23,772 nt of DNA. It comes from a virus. Positions within the stretch are counted from its first letter, which is position 1; each line of letters opens with the position of its first letter. The DNA lies in IMG/VR virus record IMGVR_UViG_3300008448_009650, positions 1-23,772 of that record. The stretch is one strand, 5' to 3'. The notes beneath the pieces are model-generated. The model saw nothing but the letters and a program-made list of their open reading frames with translations, was not told where the DNA came from and searched no databases. Below are positions 4,222 through 22,048 of the stretch, one piece after another. Position numbers and translations under genes: made by a program.

Positions 4222-4251
4222 AAAAAAAGGGAGATTTAACTCCCTTTTTTT
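4222..4251. terminator. Bidirectional hairpin terminator between OmpA-like A and CAP 1
   Basis: GGGAG (4229-4233) pairs with CTCCC (4240-4244) around a 6-base loop, and seven A before and seven T after extend the stem. It gives a U-tract in both directions. The T run overlaps the stop codon of the minus-strand CAP gene. Confidence 0.85.
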
Positions 4252-4780
4252 ATTTTACCGCCATCACACAAATCATTTTAAATCTTTCTCCTGTATACTT
4301 TGTTGCAACATAAAGACCTATTTTAGTTATGTCTGATCTTAACATTTGTTCATTATGTCCTTCAGATTGAGTCCAACAAAATACTATTTTAGTAGGTATT
4401 GTTAAAATTAGTTGTTTCCCACCTACCCACGCATTACTACTTGTAAATGTTTTATGTAAATTTTCTCCACGAACCCCATACTTACTTATATCTGAATGTT
4501 TAAATTGGTTTGTTGACACCAAATAATCAGAATAATTTTTAGCGTAATTTGTTAAAGACGTATCAATACTTAAATAAGGTAAATTATTTTCTTTTCTATA
4601 TTTATTAATATTTTTAATAGTTTCTGTATTAATACTATCAAAATCTATACTTTCATAAAATTTGACTAATGGTTTTATGGTGTATTCATAATGAAATTCT
4701 TCGTCAGTTAAATTATAAGATCCCTGAGAAAAAAAAGTTGTTACTAAAAGTAAAAATGATATAAGAGTTAAAGTTTTCAT
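4250..4780 (-). CDS. Secreted CAP-domain (SCP/PR1-like) protein 1
   Basis: 176 aa with an N-terminal signal peptide (hydrophobic core about residues 4-17, ending in FSQG). The rest matches the bacterial CAP fold: I-N-K-Y-R with N-x-L near 58-70, H95 in K-H-S-D, E106 in G-E-N-L, then W-T-Q-S-E-G-H-N with E140 and H142. These four residues are the complete His-Glu-Glu-His tetrad of CAP proteins. The product should be exported to the periplasm or outside. Bacterial CAP proteins have no single known activity. It is the first of three CAP paralogues in this window, is read from a full host-type promoter, and is convergent with a putative virion gene, like an independently expressed moron. Cargo roles such as host-envelope change or exclusion of other phages are guesses. 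Confidence 0.85.
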   Translation of the reverse strand: MKTLTLISFLLLVTTFFSQGSYNLTDEEFHYEYTIKPLVKFYESIDFDSINTETIKNINKYRKENNLPYLSIDTSLTNYAKNYSDYLVSTNQFKHSDISKYGVRGENLHKTFTSSNAWVGGKQLILTIPTKIVFCWTQSEGHNEQMLRSDITKIGLYVATKYTGERFKMICVMAVK

Positions 4781-4838: not shown

Positions 4839-6875
4839 TTATTTCTTACGTTTTGTTGGTTTTTTTATTTTTACCTCAGTTTTTTTATCTTTTTCATCAT
4901 AAGATAAAATAAACTTAGACCCTTTTTCAGGATTATCTGAAATAATTTTATCAGTTACCGCATCATCAACCCATTTTTGAATGGTTCTTTTGAGGATTCT
5001 TGCGCCAAATCTAGTGTCGGTACCAATAGATATTATATGTTTTTTTAAAGACTCTTCAACTTCAAGTTCAAAATCGATAGATGTGACTCTACCATAGACT
5101 TTTTCTAATTCCAACTCAACTATTTTTAGTAAATCGGTTTCATTTAAATCTTTAAAATAGATTATTTCATCAAATCTGTTTATGAACTCAGGTGCAAACT
5201 TTTTAAATAATTCTTTTTCTAATACGGATTTTATTTCTTCTTCTTTTTTTTCAGTTTTAGAAGTTGTTGAAAACCCTACACCAGTACCAAAATCCTGAAC
5301 AACTTTTGTCCCTACGTTAGATGTCATTAGTATAATACAATTTTTAAAATTAATTTTTCTTCCATGACTGTCGGTTAAAAACCCTTCATCTAACATTTGT
5401 AAAAATACGTTAAATATTTCAGGGTGAGCCTTTTCTATTTCATCTAATAAAATAACAGAATATGGTTTATTTTTAATTTTATTTAAAAATGGAGACCCGT
5501 CTTCATAACCAACATAACCAGGTGAAGTGCCTGTTAATTTAGATGTGGCAATTTTATCTGAAAATTCACTCATATCTAACCTAATAAGAGCATCTTCAGT
5601 GTTAAACATGTGTTTAGCTAATTGCTTCGCTAATTCAGTTTTACCGACACCTGAGTTACCAATAAGTAATCCACTAAATATTGGTCTTTTTGGATCATTT
5701 AAACCAACCTTGTTTCTTTGAATTGACCTTGAAATTTTAGATACCGCATCATCTTGACCTATAACTTTTGTGGATAGTGTATCTTTTAGTGTTTTTAGTT
5801 GTTGTGTTTCATCCGTAGAAATTTTTGAAATTGGTATTTTTGTCATTAATGATGCCACGTCATAAACAACATCTTCTGTCACTTCTCTTTTGAATAAATT
5901 TCTATTTTTTTCAAATTCAGCCTTTTCTTTTTCTAAATCAGAAAGTACTTTTCTTTCTTTGTCTCTGAGATTTGCCGCTTCTTCGTATCTTTGACTATTA
6001 ATTACTTTTACTTTTTCTTCTTTTATTTCTTGAGCTTGTCTTTTTAGATCCTCAATAATTTCAGGTAGTTTAATTTCAACTTGTGATCTAGCTCCGACCT
6101 CATCAATAATATCAAACGCCTTATCAGGAAATTCCCTATCGGTAATATATCTATCCGCCAACTCAACACACAATTTTAAAATATCATCACTATACGTTAC
6201 TTTATGATGGTCTTCATATCTTTCTTTTACGTTTTTTAATATTTGTAACGTTTCTTCTTTTGTGGATGGGTCAACCATTACTTTTTGAAATCTTCTTTCT
6301 AATGCTCCGTCTTTCTCTATATTTTTTCTATATTCTTCTAATGTTGTTGCTCCGATACATTGTAGTTCTCCTCTTGATAGTGCTGGTTTAAAAATATTTG
6401 ATGCGTCCATAGACCCTGAAGAGTTACCCGCACCAATCATTGTATGTATCTCATCAATAAAAACAATAATATCTGGATTTGCGTAAAGTTCTTCAATAAT
6501 AACCTTCATACGTTCTTCAAATTGACCTCTATATTTTGTTCCTGCAACTATTGAAGTCATGTCTAACGAAACAATTCTTTTTCCTGAAAGGTTTTGTGGA
6601 CAATCTCCCTCAAATATTTTTTTGGCTAACCCCTCAACAATTGCTGTTTTACCACAACCAGGTTCCCCAAGTATTATTGGGTTATTTTTTTTTCTTCTTG
6701 AAAGAATTTGAGCGATTCTATTAATTTCATTTTCTCTACCGACAACAGGATCTAATTTTCCTTCTTCAGCTAATTTAATTAGGTCTCTTGAAAAGTTATC
6801 TAAAACAGGTGTTTTAGTTTTTGTTTCAGTATTTTTATTTTTAGATTTTTCCATGTCGTCGTATGATTCAATCAT
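4839..6875 (-). CDS. clpC: ClpC-type AAA+ unfoldase lacking the N-domain
   Basis: 678 aa with two AAA+ modules. Module 1 has Walker A G-E-P-G-C-G-K-T (70-77), Walker B D141-E142 and an arginine pair at 194-195. A middle domain with a UVR-like motif follows (about 283-312, core Q-R-Y-E-E-A-A-N-L-R-D). Module 2 has Walker A (406-413), Walker B D478-E479, arginine R567 in F-I-N-R and sensor-2 G-A-R (624-626). The UVR-bearing middle domain marks ClpC rather than ClpA or ClpB. V-G-F at 533-535 is where ClpC carries its ClpP-docking loop. The family is normally over 800 aa; the first ~150-residue N-domain, which binds adaptors and substrates, is absent, and the protein begins only about 20 residues before module 1. 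Inference: it unfolds proteins for host ClpP under changed adaptor control. It is divergent from a UVR protein that could be a partner. M8 is an alternative start. Confidence 0.93.
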   Translation of the reverse strand: MIESYDDMEKSKNKNTETKTKTPVLDNFSRDLIKLAEEGKLDPVVGRENEINRIAQILSRRKKNNPIILGEPGCGKTAIVEGLAKKIFEGDCPQNLSGKRIVSLDMTSIVAGTKYRGQFEERMKVIIEELYANPDIIVFIDEIHTMIGAGNSSGSMDASNIFKPALSRGELQCIGATTLEEYRKNIEKDGALERRFQKVMVDPSTKEETLQILKNVKERYEDHHKVTYSDDILKLCVELADRYITDREFPDKAFDIIDEVGARSQVEIKLPEIIEDLKRQAQEIKEEKVKVINSQRYEEAANLRDKERKVLSDLEKEKAEFEKNRNLFKREVTEDVVYDVASLMTKIPISKISTDETQQLKTLKDTLSTKVIGQDDAVSKISRSIQRNKVGLNDPKRPIFSGLLIGNSGVGKTELAKQLAKHMFNTEDALIRLDMSEFSDKIATSKLTGTSPGYVGYEDGSPFLNKIKNKPYSVILLDEIEKAHPEIFNVFLQMLDEGFLTDSHGRKINFKNCIILMTSNVGTKVVQDFGTGVGFSTTSKTEKKEEEIKSVLEKELFKKFAPEFINRFDEIIYFKDLNETDLLKIVELELEKVYGRVTSIDFELEVEESLKKHIISIGTDTRFGARILKRTIQKWVDDAVTDKIISDNPEKGSKFILSYDEKDKKTEVKIKKPTKRKK

Positions 6876-7051: not shown

Positions 7052-7417
7052 ATGTTTAGTAGAAATTTTGAAAAATTATTTAACGATCTATGGTCGTCAG
7101 ATCCATTTTTAAATGGTGATAACTGGGAAAGAAAAAACTATAAATCCGAAGATGGTAATATTTCATTCACTTACATCACAAATAAACGTGGGGGGCTTAA
7201 TAAACAAGATGAATTGTCTTTATTGAAACAAAAATTAAATATTGCGGTCGACGAACAAAATTTTGAGGAGGCTGTAGAATTAAGAGACAAAATTAAAAAT
7301 TTAGAAAAAAACAAAAATAAAATTGATAAACTTAATTTAGAACTTGAGGAAAGTATAAAAAATCAAGATTTTGAAAAATCAATAATAATTAGAGATAAAC
7401 TAAAAGAACTAAAATAG
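7052..7417 (+). CDS. Small tandem-UVR protein, possible ClpC partner
   Basis: 121 aa. Two UVR (UvrB/UvrC, McsA, ClpC) motifs are visible: residues about 56-86, with N-F-E-E-A-V-E-L-R-D-K-I, and about 92-120, with D-F-E-K-S-I-I-I-R-D-K-L. UVR motifs form helical hairpins that mediate protein contacts; in Firmicutes the ClpC adaptor McsA carries one, and ClpC has one in its middle domain. The first 45 residues are aromatic and acidic and match no family I recognise; I see no McsA zinc-finger cysteines. The gene is divergent from the phage clpC with shared upstream DNA, and is monocistronic, ended by a strong terminator. Inference: an adaptor or regulator that docks on the phage or host ClpC middle domain. 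It has no DNA-repair domains, so a UvrB/C role is unlikely. Confidence 0.8.
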   Translation: MFSRNFEKLFNDLWSSDPFLNGDNWERKNYKSEDGNISFTYITNKRGGLNKQDELSLLKQKLNIAVDEQNFEEAVELRDKIKNLEKNKNKIDKLNLELEESIKNQDFEKSIIIRDKLKELK

Positions 7418-9364: not shown

Positions 9365-9388
9365 AATGGTGGTTAAAAAACCACCATT
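9365..9388. terminator. Shared hairpin between OmpA-like B and CAP 2
   Basis: AATGGTGGTT (9365-9374) and AACCACCATT (9379-9388) form a perfect 10-bp stem with an AAAA loop. It overlaps the last codons of CAP 2. No long T run follows on either strand, so it is a weaker terminator than the others and may instead protect 3' ends. Confidence 0.65.
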
Positions 9389-9894
9389 ACTATGTTAATA
9401 CAATAACCACTATTTTTTTTGATGTAAGTACCTACACCTATATTTGTTACATTTTTTGTTAACATATTTTTATTATGCCCATCCGAATTTTTCCATGTAT
9501 AAACTGCGTTTGAGGGTAATTTACTAAGTTGGTCGTATGTTAATAAAAACATACCAAACCCAGTTTCCATGTATAAATTTTCGGCAATTATATTTGATGA
9601 ACTAATATCGGAGTGATTTAATCTATTTGATATGGATAAACCCTCAGCATATCCTTTAGCGTAACCCATTAAAGAAGAATCAATAGATAACTCATTTAAT
9701 CCATTTAATTTTCTATATCTATTGATTAATTTAATGGTCTCAATAGACGAACTATCGGTGTTATATGAATTTAAAACTTTTACATTTTGTTGATTGATTA
9801 ACTCAACCATCTGATCTTTATGGTTTAATTCTGATGTTTGTGCAATAATATTAAATGAACAAACTGATAAAATAATAAACAATAAATTTTTCAT
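9373..9894 (-). CDS. Secreted CAP-domain protein 2
   Basis: 173 aa with a signal peptide (hydrophobic residues about 4-18, ending I-A-Q). CAP landmarks are I-N-R-Y-R (57-61), H94 in N-H-S-D, E105 in A-E-N-L, and W-K-N-S-D-G-H-N with D138 and H140. The second acidic tetrad residue is Asp rather than Glu, a conservative change. It shares overall layout with CAP 1, including the S-I-E/D-T-I-K-x-I-N spacing and the T-N-I-G-V-G-T segment near the end, so the two are paralogues. It is expected to be exported. It is convergent with OmpA-like B exactly as CAP 1 is with OmpA-like A, and has its own full host-type promoter separating it from CAP 3. Confidence 0.83.
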   Translation of the reverse strand: MKNLLFIILSVCSFNIIAQTSELNHKDQMVELINQQNVKVLNSYNTDSSSIETIKLINRYRKLNGLNELSIDSSLMGYAKGYAEGLSISNRLNHSDISSSNIIAENLYMETGFGMFLLTYDQLSKLPSNAVYTWKNSDGHNKNMLTKNVTNIGVGTYIKKNSGYCINIVMVVF

Positions 9895-9960: not shown

Positions 9961-10464
9961 TTATTTTAAAACCATAACACATTTTAGTTTATATGACTGA
10001 TCAAAAGTAGTAACAGTAGATAAACCGATTTCTTTGGCATTTGGATTTAAAAGATTTATATTGTGGTATTTAGATTTTACCCAGCTATTGAAAATTTTAC
10101 TTGGTGTTTTTTGTAGGTCCTCTAAGGTGTAATTAGGTACCCCGACTGAATTGATTGTATTTATGTTTTCACACAAATACCCATACTTTTCTATTTCTGA
10201 ATGACCTGTTACTTGACCTGTAACTGAAAGTTTTGCCCAATTTTTAGAATAATCTACAAGTTCGTTTGAGATTGTAAGTTCATTTAACCCCTGAGACTTT
10301 CTGTAATTGTTTATTAATTTTACAACTTCTAAACTTACACTATCGTAGTCTATTTTATTGTAGGCTTCTTTACTTTTGTTTATCCAATATTGATCATTTA
10401 TGTTTTCTTGAGAAAAAGAAACTAAAAAATTAAATAAAAATACTAATGAAAATAATTTATACAT
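9961..10464 (-). CDS. Secreted CAP-domain protein 3, with altered tetrad
   Basis: 167 aa with a signal peptide ending in S-F-S-Q (about residue 19). CAP landmarks: I-N-N-Y-R (51-55), H88 in G-H-S-E, E99 in C-E-N-I, and W-V-K-S-K-Y-H-N with H134. Where CAP 1 has Glu and CAP 2 Asp, this protein has Lys (K132), so the metal-binding tetrad should be broken; a structural or ligand-binding role is more likely than metal-dependent activity. The order of elements otherwise matches the other two copies. It probably arose by tandem duplication with CAP 2. It is expected to be exported. Confidence 0.8.
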   Translation of the reverse strand: MYKLFSLVFLFNFLVSFSQENINDQYWINKSKEAYNKIDYDSVSLEVVKLINNYRKSQGLNELTISNELVDYSKNWAKLSVTGQVTGHSEIEKYGYLCENINTINSVGVPNYTLEDLQKTPSKIFNSWVKSKYHNINLLNPNAKEIGLSTVTTFDQSYKLKCVMVLK

Positions 10465-15793: not shown

Positions 15794-17644
15794 ATGGCAG
15801 AACAAAAATATACAGTTTGGCAAAGGTTGGGCAGAGTGTTTGGACCCAATTCAACATTAGACCAACAAGCTCCGGTTTTTAAATTTGACAAAAAAGAATT
15901 ATTAAAAACCACAGATAAAAAAGAATATGAAAATGAAAAATTACAAGCACAACAAAGTATGTTTATTGGTAAACAATGGCAAAAAGTTGAAAGTAATTTA
16001 TACCAACAAGCGGTTTATTATGAACCAACAAGAATAGCGTCTTATTATGATTATGAATCTATGGAATATACTCCTGAGATTTCAGCGGCATTAGACATAT
16101 ATTCGGAAGAGTCAACAACTCCAGATAAAGATGGTTATATCTTAAAAATATATTCTGAGTCTAAAAGAATAAAAACCGTATTAGCGGACCTATTTAATAA
16201 CAGATTGGATATTAACACCAATCTACCAATGTGGACAAGAAATACTTGTAAGTATGGTGATAATTTTGTTTATTTAAAACTTGATCCTGAAAGAGGTATT
16301 GTTGGGTGTCAACAATTACCTAACATACAAGTAGAAAGGTTAGAAAGAGGTATGAAAATAAACTCTTCTACGTATGGTAAAGAAACCGAAAACGAATCTT
16401 TAAAATTCACATGGAAAGAAAAAAACATGGAATTTAACACATGGGAAATTGGGCATTTCAGAATTTTAGGTGATGATAGAAAATTACCATACGGTACTTC
16501 TATGTTAGAAAAGGCAAGACGTATATGGAAACAATTACTATTATGTGAGGATGCGATGTTGATTTATAGAGTATCTAGAGCACCTGAAAGAAGAGTATTT
16601 AAGGTATTTGTAGGAAACATGGATGACAAAGATGTTGATGCTTATGTACAAAAGGTTGCATCTAAATTTAAAAGAGACCAAATTGCAGACCCACAAACAG
16701 GAAATGTAGATATGAGATATAATCAATTGGCGGTAGATCAAGATTACTTTATACCTGTAAGAGATTCTGCTGCGGCAATGCCTATAGAAACTTTGGCGGG
16801 AGCCGCTAATTTAGCTGAAATTGCCGACATTGAGTATATTCAAAAAAAATTAGTAACTTCATTGAGAATACCAAAAGCATATTTAGGATTTGAAGAGGCC
16901 GTTGGTGATGGTAAAAATTTATCTTTACTTGATATTAGATTTGCAAGAACAATTAATAGAATACAAAAATCTATGATTGCCGAACTAAATAAAATTGCAA
17001 TAATACATTTATTTCTTTTAGGGTTTGAAGATGAGTTAACCAATTTCACATTAGGGTTAAATAACCCTTCTAAACAGGCTGATTTATTGGGTGTTGAGGT
17101 TTGGAAAGAAAAAATTACATTATATAAAGATGCTGTTGCAGAAATACCTAATTCTGTTGCACCTGTTTCTGCTTCGTGGGCTAAAAAACATATTTTAGGT
17201 TTCTCTGATGAAGAAATAAGATTAGATTTACAACAACAAAGAATTGAAAGGGCGGTTGCTGGTGAGTTAGCTAAAACCGCTGAGGTTATTTCTAAAACAG
17301 GTCTATTTGACAATATTGACAATTTATATAAACCTAAAAGTGGTGCTACATTTACTATGGGTGGTGGTGCTGATGCAGGTGCTGCGGATACCGGAGGGGC
17401 TACAGATACGGGCAGTTCACCTGACTTAGGCGGTGGTATGGATTTAGGATCAACCTCACCGGAAGGTGGTTCTGAACCGGCAGGTGGCTCTGAACCAACA
17501 GTACCCGAAAGGTTCAAAAAAGATGACTTAAATTTAATTGTTGAAGAAACTCTTTTTAATGGTATTGATTATATGGATTTATCAAAAGGGAGAAACTCTT
17601 TGGTAGAAATTAACAACAAACTGAAAGATTTAATTGATAAGTGA
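15794..17644 (+). CDS. Portal vertex protein (T4 gp20-like)
   Basis: 616 aa. The clearest T4 gp20 signature is L-I-Y-R-V-S-R-A-P-E-R-R-V-F with V-G-N (256-275), followed by F-I-P-V-R (319-323), the L-A-G-A-A-N-L-A-E-I-A-D-I-E-Y-I-Q-K-K-L tunnel region (334-353) and the R-I-P-K-A-Y-L-G stretch (358-365). It forms the dodecameric ring at one capsid vertex through which DNA enters and on which the prohead initiates. It is about 90 residues longer than T4 gp20; the excess is a Gly/Ala/Asp/Ser-rich linker (about 522-567) and a short conserved-looking C-terminal helix. It follows the terminase with no promoter motif between, so they are probably co-transcribed. A promoter motif begins directly after its stop codon. 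Confidence 0.96.
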   Translation: MAEQKYTVWQRLGRVFGPNSTLDQQAPVFKFDKKELLKTTDKKEYENEKLQAQQSMFIGKQWQKVESNLYQQAVYYEPTRIASYYDYESMEYTPEISAALDIYSEESTTPDKDGYILKIYSESKRIKTVLADLFNNRLDINTNLPMWTRNTCKYGDNFVYLKLDPERGIVGCQQLPNIQVERLERGMKINSSTYGKETENESLKFTWKEKNMEFNTWEIGHFRILGDDRKLPYGTSMLEKARRIWKQLLLCEDAMLIYRVSRAPERRVFKVFVGNMDDKDVDAYVQKVASKFKRDQIADPQTGNVDMRYNQLAVDQDYFIPVRDSAAAMPIETLAGAANLAEIADIEYIQKKLVTSLRIPKAYLGFEEAVGDGKNLSLLDIRFARTINRIQKSMIAELNKIAIIHLFLLGFEDELTNFTLGLNNPSKQADLLGVEVWKEKITLYKDAVAEIPNSVAPVSASWAKKHILGFSDEEIRLDLQQQRIERAVAGELAKTAEVISKTGLFDNIDNLYKPKSGATFTMGGGADAGAADTGGATDTGSSPDLGGGMDLGSTSPEGGSEPAGGSEPTVPERFKKDDLNLIVEETLFNGIDYMDLSKGRNSLVEINNKLKDLIDK

Positions 17645-18395: not shown

Positions 18396-18664
18396 AAAAA
18401 TTTTTTAGTGGAATTGGGAGATTGTTTATGGACAATCAAGGTAATGCATCATCAAAAAGATTTGTAGGAATCTTGTGTGGTGTATCTCTTTGTGTTACCT
18501 TATATGTAAATAGCTATTCTCACGGTGACATCAGACCATCTGACACTTTAGTAAATGCAGTAGCAATGCTAGCATTCGGTTGTTTAGGTCTTACATCAAC
18601 TGAAAAGATTTTTGGAAAAAAATCAGAAGAGAAAAAAGAAGAAGAATCTCAAGAATCTAATTGA
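18392..18664 (+). CDS. Small two-helix membrane protein, holin-like
   Basis: 90 aa with two hydrophobic segments, about residues 24-42 and 52-68, joined by a short polar turn (S-Y-S-H-G-D-I-R-P-S). A basic N-terminus (M-K-K-F-F) and a highly charged Lys/Glu C-tail complete a class-II holin-like layout. Such proteins sit in the cytoplasmic membrane; holins time lysis by forming pores. No endolysin gene is next to it, so the holin assignment is tentative and another membrane role, for example during prohead assembly at the membrane, is possible. Translation is coupled to the previous gene, and the end overlaps the antisense bS21 gene by 16 bases. Confidence 0.72.
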   Translation: MKKFFSGIGRLFMDNQGNASSKRFVGILCGVSLCVTLYVNSYSHGDIRPSDTLVNAVAMLAFGCLGLTSTEKIFGKKSEEKKEEESQESN

Positions 18665-18837
18665 TTCTTTTGTTTGTATTTAGCTTTTTGAATTTGAGCC
18701 CTTCGTTTTACGGAGGGTTTTTTATATTCTTTTCTTTCTTGTAATTTTTGTATTTGTTTTGTTTTATAAATTTTAAACTTATATGTTTTTAAGGCTTGCT
18801 CAATAGACTTTTCATTTTTTACCTGTACTATAATCAT
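18649..18837 (-). CDS. rpsU: Ribosomal protein bS21 (phage-encoded)
   Basis: 62 aa, the full bS21 length. It starts M-I-I-V-Q-V-K, has S-I-E-Q-A-L-K-T-Y-K, and the conserved K-K-P-S-V-K-R-R-A-Q-I-Q-K-A block (39-52), with Tyr at 54. bS21 sits on the 30S platform by the 3' end of 16S rRNA. In flavobacteria bS21 with bS18 and bS6 hides the anti-Shine-Dalgarno sequence, and from memory Tyr54 is part of that contact. Flavobacterial host bS21 genes commonly carry a strong SD for autoregulation; the phage gene has none, the upstream bases being A-rich. It is preceded by a TATTTAT motif on its own strand and is convergent with the holin-like gene. Inference: it replaces host bS21 in ribosomes late in infection to favour phage mRNA. 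Confidence 0.93.
   Translation of the reverse strand: MIIVQVKNEKSIEQALKTYKFKIYKTKQIQKLQERKEYKKPSVKRRAQIQKAKYKQKNQLDS
18699..18723 (+). terminator. Terminator of the portal-downstream unit, inside antisense bS21
   Basis: CCCTTCG (18699-18705) pairs with CGGAGGG (18711-18717), one G-U pair, around TTTTA, followed by six T. It lies 35 bases past the holin-like stop and within the bS21 coding sequence on the opposite strand. Confidence 0.8.
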
Positions 18838-18851
18838 AAATTTTTTGGTTT

Positions 18852-18864
18852 TATAATATAAATA
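18852..18864 (-). promoter_or_regulatory. TATTTAT phage promoter-like motif for bS21, minus strand
   Basis: On the minus strand TATTTAT (18864 to 18858) is followed by ATTATAAAA, 20 bases before the bS21 ATG at 18837. This minus-strand example shows the motif follows the direction of transcription. The remaining 78 bases up to the next gene are AT-rich with nothing else seen. Confidence 0.5.
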
Positions 18865-18942
18865 GTAAGATATTTTTTAATTTTTGACAACTGAGTATTT
18901 TTTTAATATTATTGTAAAAAATAAACTTGAAAGTTATGAAAA

Positions 18943-19412: not shown

Positions 19413-20123
19413 ATGAAAATATTAGGACCAAGTGATATAGGGAAGGGCATATTAGTAGAATGGGATGCTGGAACAATCAATCCAAAAGAATATAGAAACA
19501 GTAAAGTTATAAAAGAATCTTACGGTCAATTAGACCATTCTAAACCATTTGAGTTTTATGCTACTTTACAAAAATATGGAGTACCAAATAGAAACGGAAG
19601 AATTTACCCTGAAAAAATATTAAAAAGAGAAGCGGAAAGATATAAGGAAATGATAGAAAGAGGTATGTCAATTTCAGAATTAAATCACCCTGAATCGTCT
19701 CTTATTGATTTAGATAGAGTGGCTCATTTAATAACCGATATTTGGTGGGAAGACAATGTGTTAGTTGGTAAGGTTAAATTACTTACAACCCCTGGATTTC
19801 ATGAAAGTGGGGTTGTTTCATCAAAAGGGGACGTGGCTGCAAATATGATGAGACAAGGGGTTACTATGGGTGTTTCTTCAAGAGGTGTTGGATCATTGGT
19901 TAAAAAAGGAGAACAAAATGAAGTACAAGACGATTTTGAATTAATATGTTTTGATTTAGTTTCATCACCATCAACACCAGGAGCTTACCTTTACTTGAAC
20001 AAAGAGGATAGACCAAAGTATGAGGAAAAACTTACAGAACATGAAAATATTGAAATTTCAACAAATCCTTTAGATAAATCTGTTGACTTAATGAAAAGAT
20101 TATCTGATTATTTAGATAAATAA
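19413..20123 (+). CDS. Prohead core protease (T4 gp21-like, S80/S78-type fold)
   Basis: 236 aa. The serine protease fold of T4 gp21 and HK97-like prohead proteases is recognisable from H92 in S-E-L-N-H-P-E-S, the serine in M-G-V-S-S-R-G-V-G-S (S155 or S156), and D181 in C-F-D-L-V-S-S-P-S-T-P-G-A. It is expected to cleave scaffold and capsid proteins after Glu within I/L-x-E sites and then itself, emptying the prohead before DNA entry. A candidate target, L-I-N-E then A-S-A, occurs in the capsid protein of this window at residue 60. Gene order protease, small protein, scaffold, capsid matches T4 apart from the 69-aa insert. Confidence 0.93.
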   Translation: MKILGPSDIGKGILVEWDAGTINPKEYRNSKVIKESYGQLDHSKPFEFYATLQKYGVPNRNGRIYPEKILKREAERYKEMIERGMSISELNHPESSLIDLDRVAHLITDIWWEDNVLVGKVKLLTTPGFHESGVVSSKGDVAANMMRQGVTMGVSSRGVGSLVKKGEQNEVQDDFELICFDLVSSPSTPGAYLYLNKEDRPKYEEKLTEHENIEISTNPLDKSVDLMKRLSDYLDK

Positions 20124-20476: not shown

Positions 20477-22048
20477 ATGAGTATGCAAACAAAATCGATA
20501 GTAGAAGACACTTTATTAAAAATTAAAGCAGTCGAAGAAGCTATCAGTGAAAACGCAAAAGGAATACTTGCTTCAACTATGAAGGAAGAAATCAGTGAAT
20601 TAGTTAAGGAATCGTTAAATGATTCAAAAAGAAAAAAAAGGTCACTTAGAGAACAAGAAGAAGTACCAGTTTCTGATGAAGAAGAGGTAGACATGGATGT
20701 TGAGGCATCTGATGAAATGGGTGACGAAGAAGAGTCTATTGACATGGATGTTGAAGATTCTGAAGAAGACATGGAAGACATGGAAGACGCAGAAGAATCT
20801 GACGACATTGAAGCTATGTCTATGGATGATAATGAAATGCCTCCGTTAGATATGACACAAGCGTCTCCTGAAGAAGTTTTAAAAGTTTTTAAAGCTATGG
20901 GTGATGAAGATGGTATTATTGTTAAAAAAGATGGTAATTTTTTACATCTTTCAGACAATGAAACAAATAAGGATTATTTAATCCAAACTGAGGCAAGAAA
21001 AAGAAGAAACATGAAATCAAACTTAAACGAAAGAGTTTTGTATGAGTTACAATTCAGAGATGATGAAAATGAAGGAAGACCTTCACGTAGAAGATCGTCT
21101 AGAGATTTTGATATGGAGGACATGGACACTGATGTTGATATGGAGGACATGGATGAAATGTATGACATGGATGAAATGTATGAAATGGATGATTACGTTT
21201 CTGAGTATAACGAAAATGAAGAAGAGTCTGATGAAACTATTTACGAATTAGAAATGGACGAAATGGAAGACTTGGACGAAATGGAAGACTTGGACGAAAT
21301 GGAAGACTTGGACGAAATGGAAGACTTGGACGAAATGGAAGACTTGGACGAAATGGAAGACTTGGACGAAGAAGAAGACGAAGATGACGAGGATGAAGTT
21401 AACGAAGCATTCAAAGCAAAAGGAAAAGTTGGAAAAATGAAATTTTCATATCCTAAAAAACTTAGAAAAGGTGTATCTGAAACTTCAGACGAAGATGAAG
21501 AATTTTCTGAATGGAATGAAGAAGAAGAGGATGAGTTTGTTGAAAGTGATGAAGACGAAATGGAAACCACTGAAGCCGCTAGAACTATGACATATAGAAG
21601 AAGGGCTGAAAGAGGTAGGGTGACTGCACCTAGACAAGTTTCTGAGTCAAAATTGAATGAAATAAAACTTTTAAGAGAAAAAAATGAAGAGTATAAAAAA
21701 GCTTTAGATTTCTTCAGAAACAAACTTAATGAAGTAGCAGTATTTAATTCAAATTTGGCATATTCAACAAGATTATTCACTGAACATTCAACTACAAAAC
21801 AAGAAAAGATTAATATTCTAAGAAGATTTGACAACGTAGAAACTTTGAAAGAATCTAAAAATCTTTATAAAACAATTAAAAATGAATTAGATACTAATAA
21901 CCAAAAAGGTAATGTTGTAAAAGAATCTATTGAAAGAAAAGTTACAAAAATACCACAAAATGGTTCAGCAACTAATTTGATTGAAAGTAAAACGTATGAG
22001 AATCCTCAATTCTTGAGAATGAAGGATTTGATGACAAAAATTAAATAA
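20477..22048 (+). CDS. Prohead scaffold / core protein (T4 gp22-like)
   Basis: 523 aa, extremely acidic. N-terminal helices (1-50) with K-I-K-A-V-E-E-A-I-S and E-E-I-S-E-L-V-K-E-S lead into Asp/Glu/Met tracts (about 66-120), a small folded-looking patch around 130-190, a second acidic region with six copies of D-E-M-E-D-L, and a basic, helical C-terminal part from about residue 380. The gene occupies the gp22 slot between protease and capsid; T4 gp22 is also an acidic, helical scaffold that gp21 destroys. The protein is roughly twice the size of T4 gp22 (about 270), mainly through low-complexity expansion. The family call rests on position and composition more than on sequence identity. The second ATG, two codons on, is an alternative start. 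Confidence 0.78.
   Translation: MSMQTKSIVEDTLLKIKAVEEAISENAKGILASTMKEEISELVKESLNDSKRKKRSLREQEEVPVSDEEEVDMDVEASDEMGDEEESIDMDVEDSEEDMEDMEDAEESDDIEAMSMDDNEMPPLDMTQASPEEVLKVFKAMGDEDGIIVKKDGNFLHLSDNETNKDYLIQTEARKRRNMKSNLNERVLYELQFRDDENEGRPSRRRSSRDFDMEDMDTDVDMEDMDEMYDMDEMYEMDDYVSEYNENEEESDETIYELEMDEMEDLDEMEDLDEMEDLDEMEDLDEMEDLDEMEDLDEEEDEDDEDEVNEAFKAKGKVGKMKFSYPKKLRKGVSETSDEDEEFSEWNEEEEDEFVESDEDEMETTEAARTMTYRRRAERGRVTAPRQVSESKLNEIKLLREKNEEYKKALDFFRNKLNEVAVFNSNLAYSTRLFTEHSTTKQEKINILRRFDNVETLKESKNLYKTIKNELDTNNQKGNVVKESIERKVTKIPQNGSATNLIESKTYENPQFLRMKDLMTKIK
21257..21364 (+). repeat. Six perfect tandem copies of an 18-base unit
   Basis: GACGAAATGGAAGACTTG repeats six times with no base change, coding D-E-M-E-D-L in the scaffold gene. 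A broken seventh copy (GACGAAGAAGAAGAC) follows. Perfect identity at third positions indicates recent slippage or unequal recombination. Confidence 0.95.

Follow-up and report, generated by a model that had tools for sequence, protein, structure and literature searches.

A bS21 gene that retains Tyr54 and lacks a Shine-Dalgarno sequence in a T4-like myovirus

A 23.8-kb IMG/VR virus record from a T4-like myovirus was found to carry a homologue of rpsU, encoding ribosomal protein bS21, that retains Tyr54, lies behind a leader without a Shine-Dalgarno (SD) sequence and is preceded by the motif TATTTAT; the whole 23,772-nucleotide record is referred to here as the window. The reading that we favour, at a probability of roughly 0.55, is that this gene encodes a functional bS21 paralogue that is transcribed, as an SD-less mRNA, from a late-type TATTTAT promoter of its own, enters the 30S subunit, keeps the anti-SD sequestered and favours SD-less phage mRNAs. 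Ribosomal proteins are widespread in phages and their use is unproven. The Flavobacteriaceae offer a defined host circuit, the SD-driven autoregulation of rpsU, and the phage gene has the key residue of the protein without the input of the circuit; ribosome takeover can thus be tested with existing Flavobacterium johnsoniae reporters and strains. Such a gene has already been published for lake Bacteroidetes phages and the leader comparisons are the new part: the promoter and SD of phage bS21 are not treated in PMC9723584, and neither a comparison of phage leaders with host SDs nor a description of the phage promoter was found in that paper or in PMC9976891. The features discussed are listed in Table 1.

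Table 1. Features of the window around the phage bS21 gene.
Feature	Position	Strand	Basis or remark
T4-like portal (gp20)	15794..17644	+	PF07230, 5.8e-77
Small probable membrane protein, 90 aa	18392..18664	+	Convergent with bS21, 3' ends overlap by 16 bp; found in the window clade
Phage bS21 (rpsU homologue)	18649..18837	-	62 aa, ATG at 18837, residue 54 is Tyr
Probable intrinsic terminator of the portal-core-membrane protein unit	18696..18727	+	Antisense within the bS21 CDS
bS21 leader, TATTTATA to ATG (TTATAAAACCAAAAAATTT)	18838..18856	-	A-rich, no SD
TATTTATA, phage-type -10-like promoter element of bS21	18857..18864	-	Motif enrichment, conservation
Host-type promoter of the divergent plus-strand gene (TTTTGACAA ... 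TATTATTG)	18882..18915	+	TTGACA-17-TATTAT, 11/12
Divergent neighbour, 149 aa	18943..19392	+	Probably bS21_CN of Chen et al. 2022
Prohead protease	19413..20123	+	PF03420, 3.2e-22; TATTTAT at -20

The initial annotation had described a phage bS21 with Tyr54, over a range extended to 18864 to take in the leader, and this identification was borne out. The open reading frame scored above the cut-offs of both Pfam PF01165 (E 2.6e-10, 40.3 bits against 27) and NCBIfam TIGR00030 (34.4 against 28.95), and its residues 1-57 gave a gap-free alignment with F. johnsoniae bS21 (7JIL, chain 7jil_z; E 7e-11), including Tyr54, the residue that marks the Bacteroidia-type bS21 that sequesters the anti-SD. Most relatives carry Tyr, His or Phe at this position. 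The C-terminal tail beyond it is unlike that of the hosts, so that sequestration by the phage protein may be imperfect. The median dN/dS of about 0.10 demonstrated that the gene is under purifying selection. No in-frame start codon was present upstream of the ATG, and the start and leader were kept across 80 relatives. These relatives were 80 IMG/VR loci, to which loci from three further scans and one neighbour-protein scan were added; one IMG/VR match (L155) resembled a bacterial Weeksellaceae-type rpsU and was left out of the phage evidence. A query of a phage collection with bS21 returned five matches only, all uncultured (four huge-phage records and one of 9.9 kb). On the host side, the genome of Hyunsoonleella aquatilis was seen to hold two bS21 genes.

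The absence of an SD, also claimed at the outset, was confirmed by pairing the leader with the 16S tail. The leader runs TATTTATA-TTATAAAACCAAAAAATTT-ATG, with TATTTATA 20 nt before the ATG, and the best pairing of positions -22 to -2 with UCACCUCCUUUCU was +1.6 kcal/mol; the start region was predicted to be unstructured. The objection that a transcript starting further upstream could include an SD is moot, since, for any transcription start, an SD has to be no further than about 15 nt from the ATG. An extended SD of the type described by McNutt et al. 2023 lies below -13 kcal/mol, a value that none of the leaders in the full virus set (115 distinct) reached. Loci in which the 149-aa neighbour is encoded as well gave 102 distinct leaders, of which two fell between -13 and -9, 13 between -9 and -5, and the remaining 87 were weaker than -5. 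Some relatives do bear SDs, which span weak to strong from -6 to -12.2: AAAAGGAGGAAAAAAAT (L262 and L265, -12.2), AGGAG (L300 and L301), AAAGGA (-6.2) and, in the leader of a 735-kb phage, AAAGGAGG (-12.1).

The same comparison was made for hosts, whose bS21 genes had been said to carry a strong SD commonly. In a first sample, skewed to Flavobacteriaceae by the peptide patterns used, all 32 distinct rpsU leaders were below -13 kcal/mol (range -15.8 to -22.1, mean -18.7). The contrast with the phage lineage at this threshold is therefore 32/32 against 0/102. It is tempered by a second sample, drawn across the Flavobacteriales with the 30 best-scoring loci read, in which only 12 of 31 distinct leaders had an SD of either kind: seven carried a canonical one below -13 and five the Weeksellaceae-type GAGATG, four of the latter with a matching CATCTCA anti-SD in the genome. 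Most of the other leaders in this sample were without an SD, including that of one genome (G044) whose anti-SD is canonical. Uncultivated Flavobacteriales with an rpsU without a recognisable SD were L320, L323-L325, L327, L330, L332-L337, L342 and L343. The statement on host genes thus holds for the Flavobacteriaceae and does not extend to the order. Because many Flavobacteriales rpsU genes are without an SD, autoregulation through the SD is lineage-dependent, and whether the phage gene escapes host feedback depends on whether the rpsU of its own host has one.

The nature of the TATTTAT element was studied in 283 genes from the window and two large relatives, with open reading frames called from ATG only. 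TATTTAT was the most enriched 7-mer upstream of start codons (78 of 283 genes against 15.2 expected), with peaks at -11/12 and -20/21, and it was present in 91 of the 102 distinct bS21 leaders, in agreement with its original description as a phage-type motif. The two large relatives have TATTTAT at 67 genes and the host-type TTG-n18-23-TAnnTTTG at 12 (1.5 expected when all 283 genes are subjected to mononucleotide shuffling), with zero overlap. The TATTTAT genes were mostly of structural or lysis type (protease, VanY/M23, GEVED/CHU_C proteins), and the genes with host-type promoters were of DNA-metabolism type (gp32 SSB, pyrimidine dimer glycosylase), together with M42-like genes. In G002 and G003 (L093-L104), about 24 genes had TATTTAT 11-12 nt before the ATG, and the peak at this distance suggests leaderless phage mRNAs that start about 11 nt past the first T of the motif. 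For bS21, with the motif at -27, a leader of 15-16 nt would be predicted. The motif and the gene classes place bS21 in a probable late class, in agreement with metatranscriptomes published for this phage group, and its promoter is probably late-type. A candidate sigma factor was found in 6/8 large relatives as a syntenic open reading frame of about 245 aa (L162-L167), with weak matches to sigma-70 region 2 and to gp55-type proteins; the gp55-like similarity was marginal (E 3e-4 to 0.008 per genome), the element on the coding strand is TATTTAT, and the structure model was poor (pLDDT 60). No relevant paper on TATTTAT as a phage promoter came up in a literature search.

The region between bS21 and the divergent neighbour was conserved over 43 distinct sequences, with TTTTGACAA...TAttaTTG serving the neighbour and TATTTATA serving bS21. 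Two loci, L250 and L267, have kept the neighbour and TTTTGACAA, and both bS21 and TATTTATA are absent; the two promoters are thus separable, and the two genes are not obligately linked. At L248 (2160-2420), a small lipoprotein-like, Lys/Arg-rich open reading frame stands at the place of bS21 behind a retained TATTTATA. TTGTCAAAA was considered as a -35/-33 element of bS21 and set aside, since it is better read as the TTTTGACAA of the divergent gene, which is retained where bS21 is absent. The consensus of T4 late promoters is TATAAATA, and TATTTATA at 18857-18864 could really be this element, pointing on the plus strand toward the gene 79 nt downstream. However, the motif enriched in these phages is TATTTAT on the coding strand, at the two preferred distances given above, and the relatives that lack bS21 keep the TTTTGACAA of the plus-strand gene and lose TATAAATA. 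On the strength of the motif orientation statistics and these relatives, a TATAAATA promoter for the neighbour was rejected as the main reading and is considered very improbable.

The bS21 gene lies on the minus strand among TerL (13977), portal and protease genes that are all on the plus strand, the MCP being without a model match; this is the architecture of the bS21 phages of Chen et al. 2022. On the strand opposite the codons for KKPSVKRRA, an 11-pair hairpin is followed by T6 (18696-18720, plus strand). The hairpin has a predicted energy of -14.6 kcal/mol; synonymous shuffles gave about -6.6, and over 47 CDS the mean z was -1.95. Within the window clade, 46 of the 76 distinct bS21 CDS contain the terminator, against 0/78 host CDS. 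The portal-core-membrane protein transcript probably ends inside the bS21 gene at this antisense terminator. The 149-aa neighbour was beside bS21 in 72 of 75 testable neighbour loci, in divergent orientation in nearly all. Its AlphaFold model (pLDDT 88), examined for a possible role as a ribosome factor, gave a best VIA Z of 7.2, to unrelated folds, and weak neck-protein matches, and a Foldseek comparison yielded nothing at E<=0.001; a query of the phage collection with this protein gave no matches.

Elsewhere in the window, a ClpA/C-like ATPase with two AAA domains (4839-6875, minus strand) adjoins a small ClpC-adaptor-like protein (7052-7417, plus strand) in which the UVR motif occurs twice; McNutt et al. 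had speculated on a phage protease acting against host bS21 (PMC9976891). Three similar small, secreted-looking proteins are encoded on the minus strand (4250-4780, 9373-9894 and 9961-10464), with a CAP-domain match for the first two; the third was grouped with them by eye. An acidic protein with tandem MEDLDE repeats (20477-22048, plus strand) lies between the protease and the capsid region.

It could be that the missing SD is neutral, a bS21 coding sequence having been captured behind the standard SD-less late promoter and leader, with the benefit lying in the supply of bS21, or of a modified bS21, at high translation demand. Had the coding sequence alone been taken up, the absence of an SD would need no explanation, and the lack of SDs as the phage default makes this the simplest rival. 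Among the 283 phage genes none was below -13 kcal/mol and one was below -9, the bS21 leader looks like other phage leaders, and ACC, AGG and GGAGG interchange at one place among relatives with the context unchanged. However, the very strong SD of the host is normally integral to rpsU, and that it should be consistently missing is left unexplained; this account is held to be possible but doubtful. An absent SD is the default in an AT-rich phage; two points stand above chance, the difference from the leaders of Flavobacteriaceae rpsU and the degree to which TATTTAT is conserved. Another proposal, made by Chen et al. 2022, is that the divergent N-terminal and middle part of the protein (YKFKxYKTKQ) retunes the choice of mRNA toward phage mRNAs, independently of anti-SD sequestration. 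The divergent stretch is indeed phage-specific and conserved within the clade, and the divergence has been mapped to the mRNA side (PMC9723584), but SD-lessness is common to phage and host mRNAs and so offers no obvious discriminating feature. We can adopt this proposal only tentatively, as one that is less probable than the reading given at the outset.

According to that favoured reading, a T4-like Bacteroidetes myovirus would produce, from a TATTTAT promoter, a short monocistronic bS21 mRNA without an SD, which ribosomes replete with bS21, and hence blind to SDs, should be able to translate. In contrast to host rpsU, the phage gene would keep up its output when bS21 is plentiful, because its mRNA has no SD. 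The product most likely enters the 30S subunit in place of host bS21, by analogy with the pelagiphage bS21 in E. coli (PMC6375957), where its Tyr54 would keep the anti-SD sequestered and favour SD-less phage mRNAs. Feedback repression of host rpsU may follow as a side effect, where host rpsU has an SD. The suggestion that the phage makes bS21 outside host feedback can be kept in part: given the SD-less leader and the phage-type promoter, expression is likely uncoupled from SD feedback, but an SD-less leader is the norm in these phages, some relatives have an SD and the SD of host rpsU varies. No selection for escape from feedback need be assumed, since the lack of an SD is shared by all genes of these phages. 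The idea that host SD-dependent regulation is silenced reduces to rpsU itself, this being the only gene with an obvious SD in F. johnsoniae (PMC9976891). A bolder version is a feed-forward switch, in which a late SD-less mRNA is best read by bS21-replete ribosomes and its product replaces host bS21, locks the anti-SD and in this way turns host rpsU off, a growing share of the ribosome pool thus being phage-marked; we consider this rather unlikely.

Comparison with known systems places these observations in context. With T4 late transcription (gp55, TATAAATA) the present phages share T4-like head genes, promoters of -10-like elements only and a weak gp55-like open reading frame; they differ in that the element is TATTTAT on the coding strand and the sigma similarity is marginal. 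The Pelagibacter phage HTVC008M also encodes a bS21, but its host belongs to another phylum. We know of no Tyr54-type anti-SD sequestration in the ribosomes of that phylum. The HTVC008M protein enters E. coli ribosomes (Mizuno et al. 2019, PMC6375957). In freshwater phages with predicted Bacteroidetes hosts, Chen et al. 2022 described bS21 genes on the reverse strand between TerL, portal, protease and MCP, with Tyr54 or another aromatic residue conserved and late expression, and proposed substitution into host ribosomes (PMC9723584). Their huge phages (clades a-e) have in common with the phages studied here the reverse-strand bS21 between portal/core and protease, the aromatic residue 54 and the conserved divergent neighbour; in the present set, three relatives carry the divergent neighbour without bS21. 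The rpsU gene of F. johnsoniae controls its own expression by means of an extended SD that is read by bS21-lacking ribosomes, which initiate less well on SD-less mRNAs (McNutt et al. 2023, PMC9976891). The phage gene belongs to the same family and has the same Tyr54, but it has no counterpart of the extended host SD, which lies below -13 kcal/mol.
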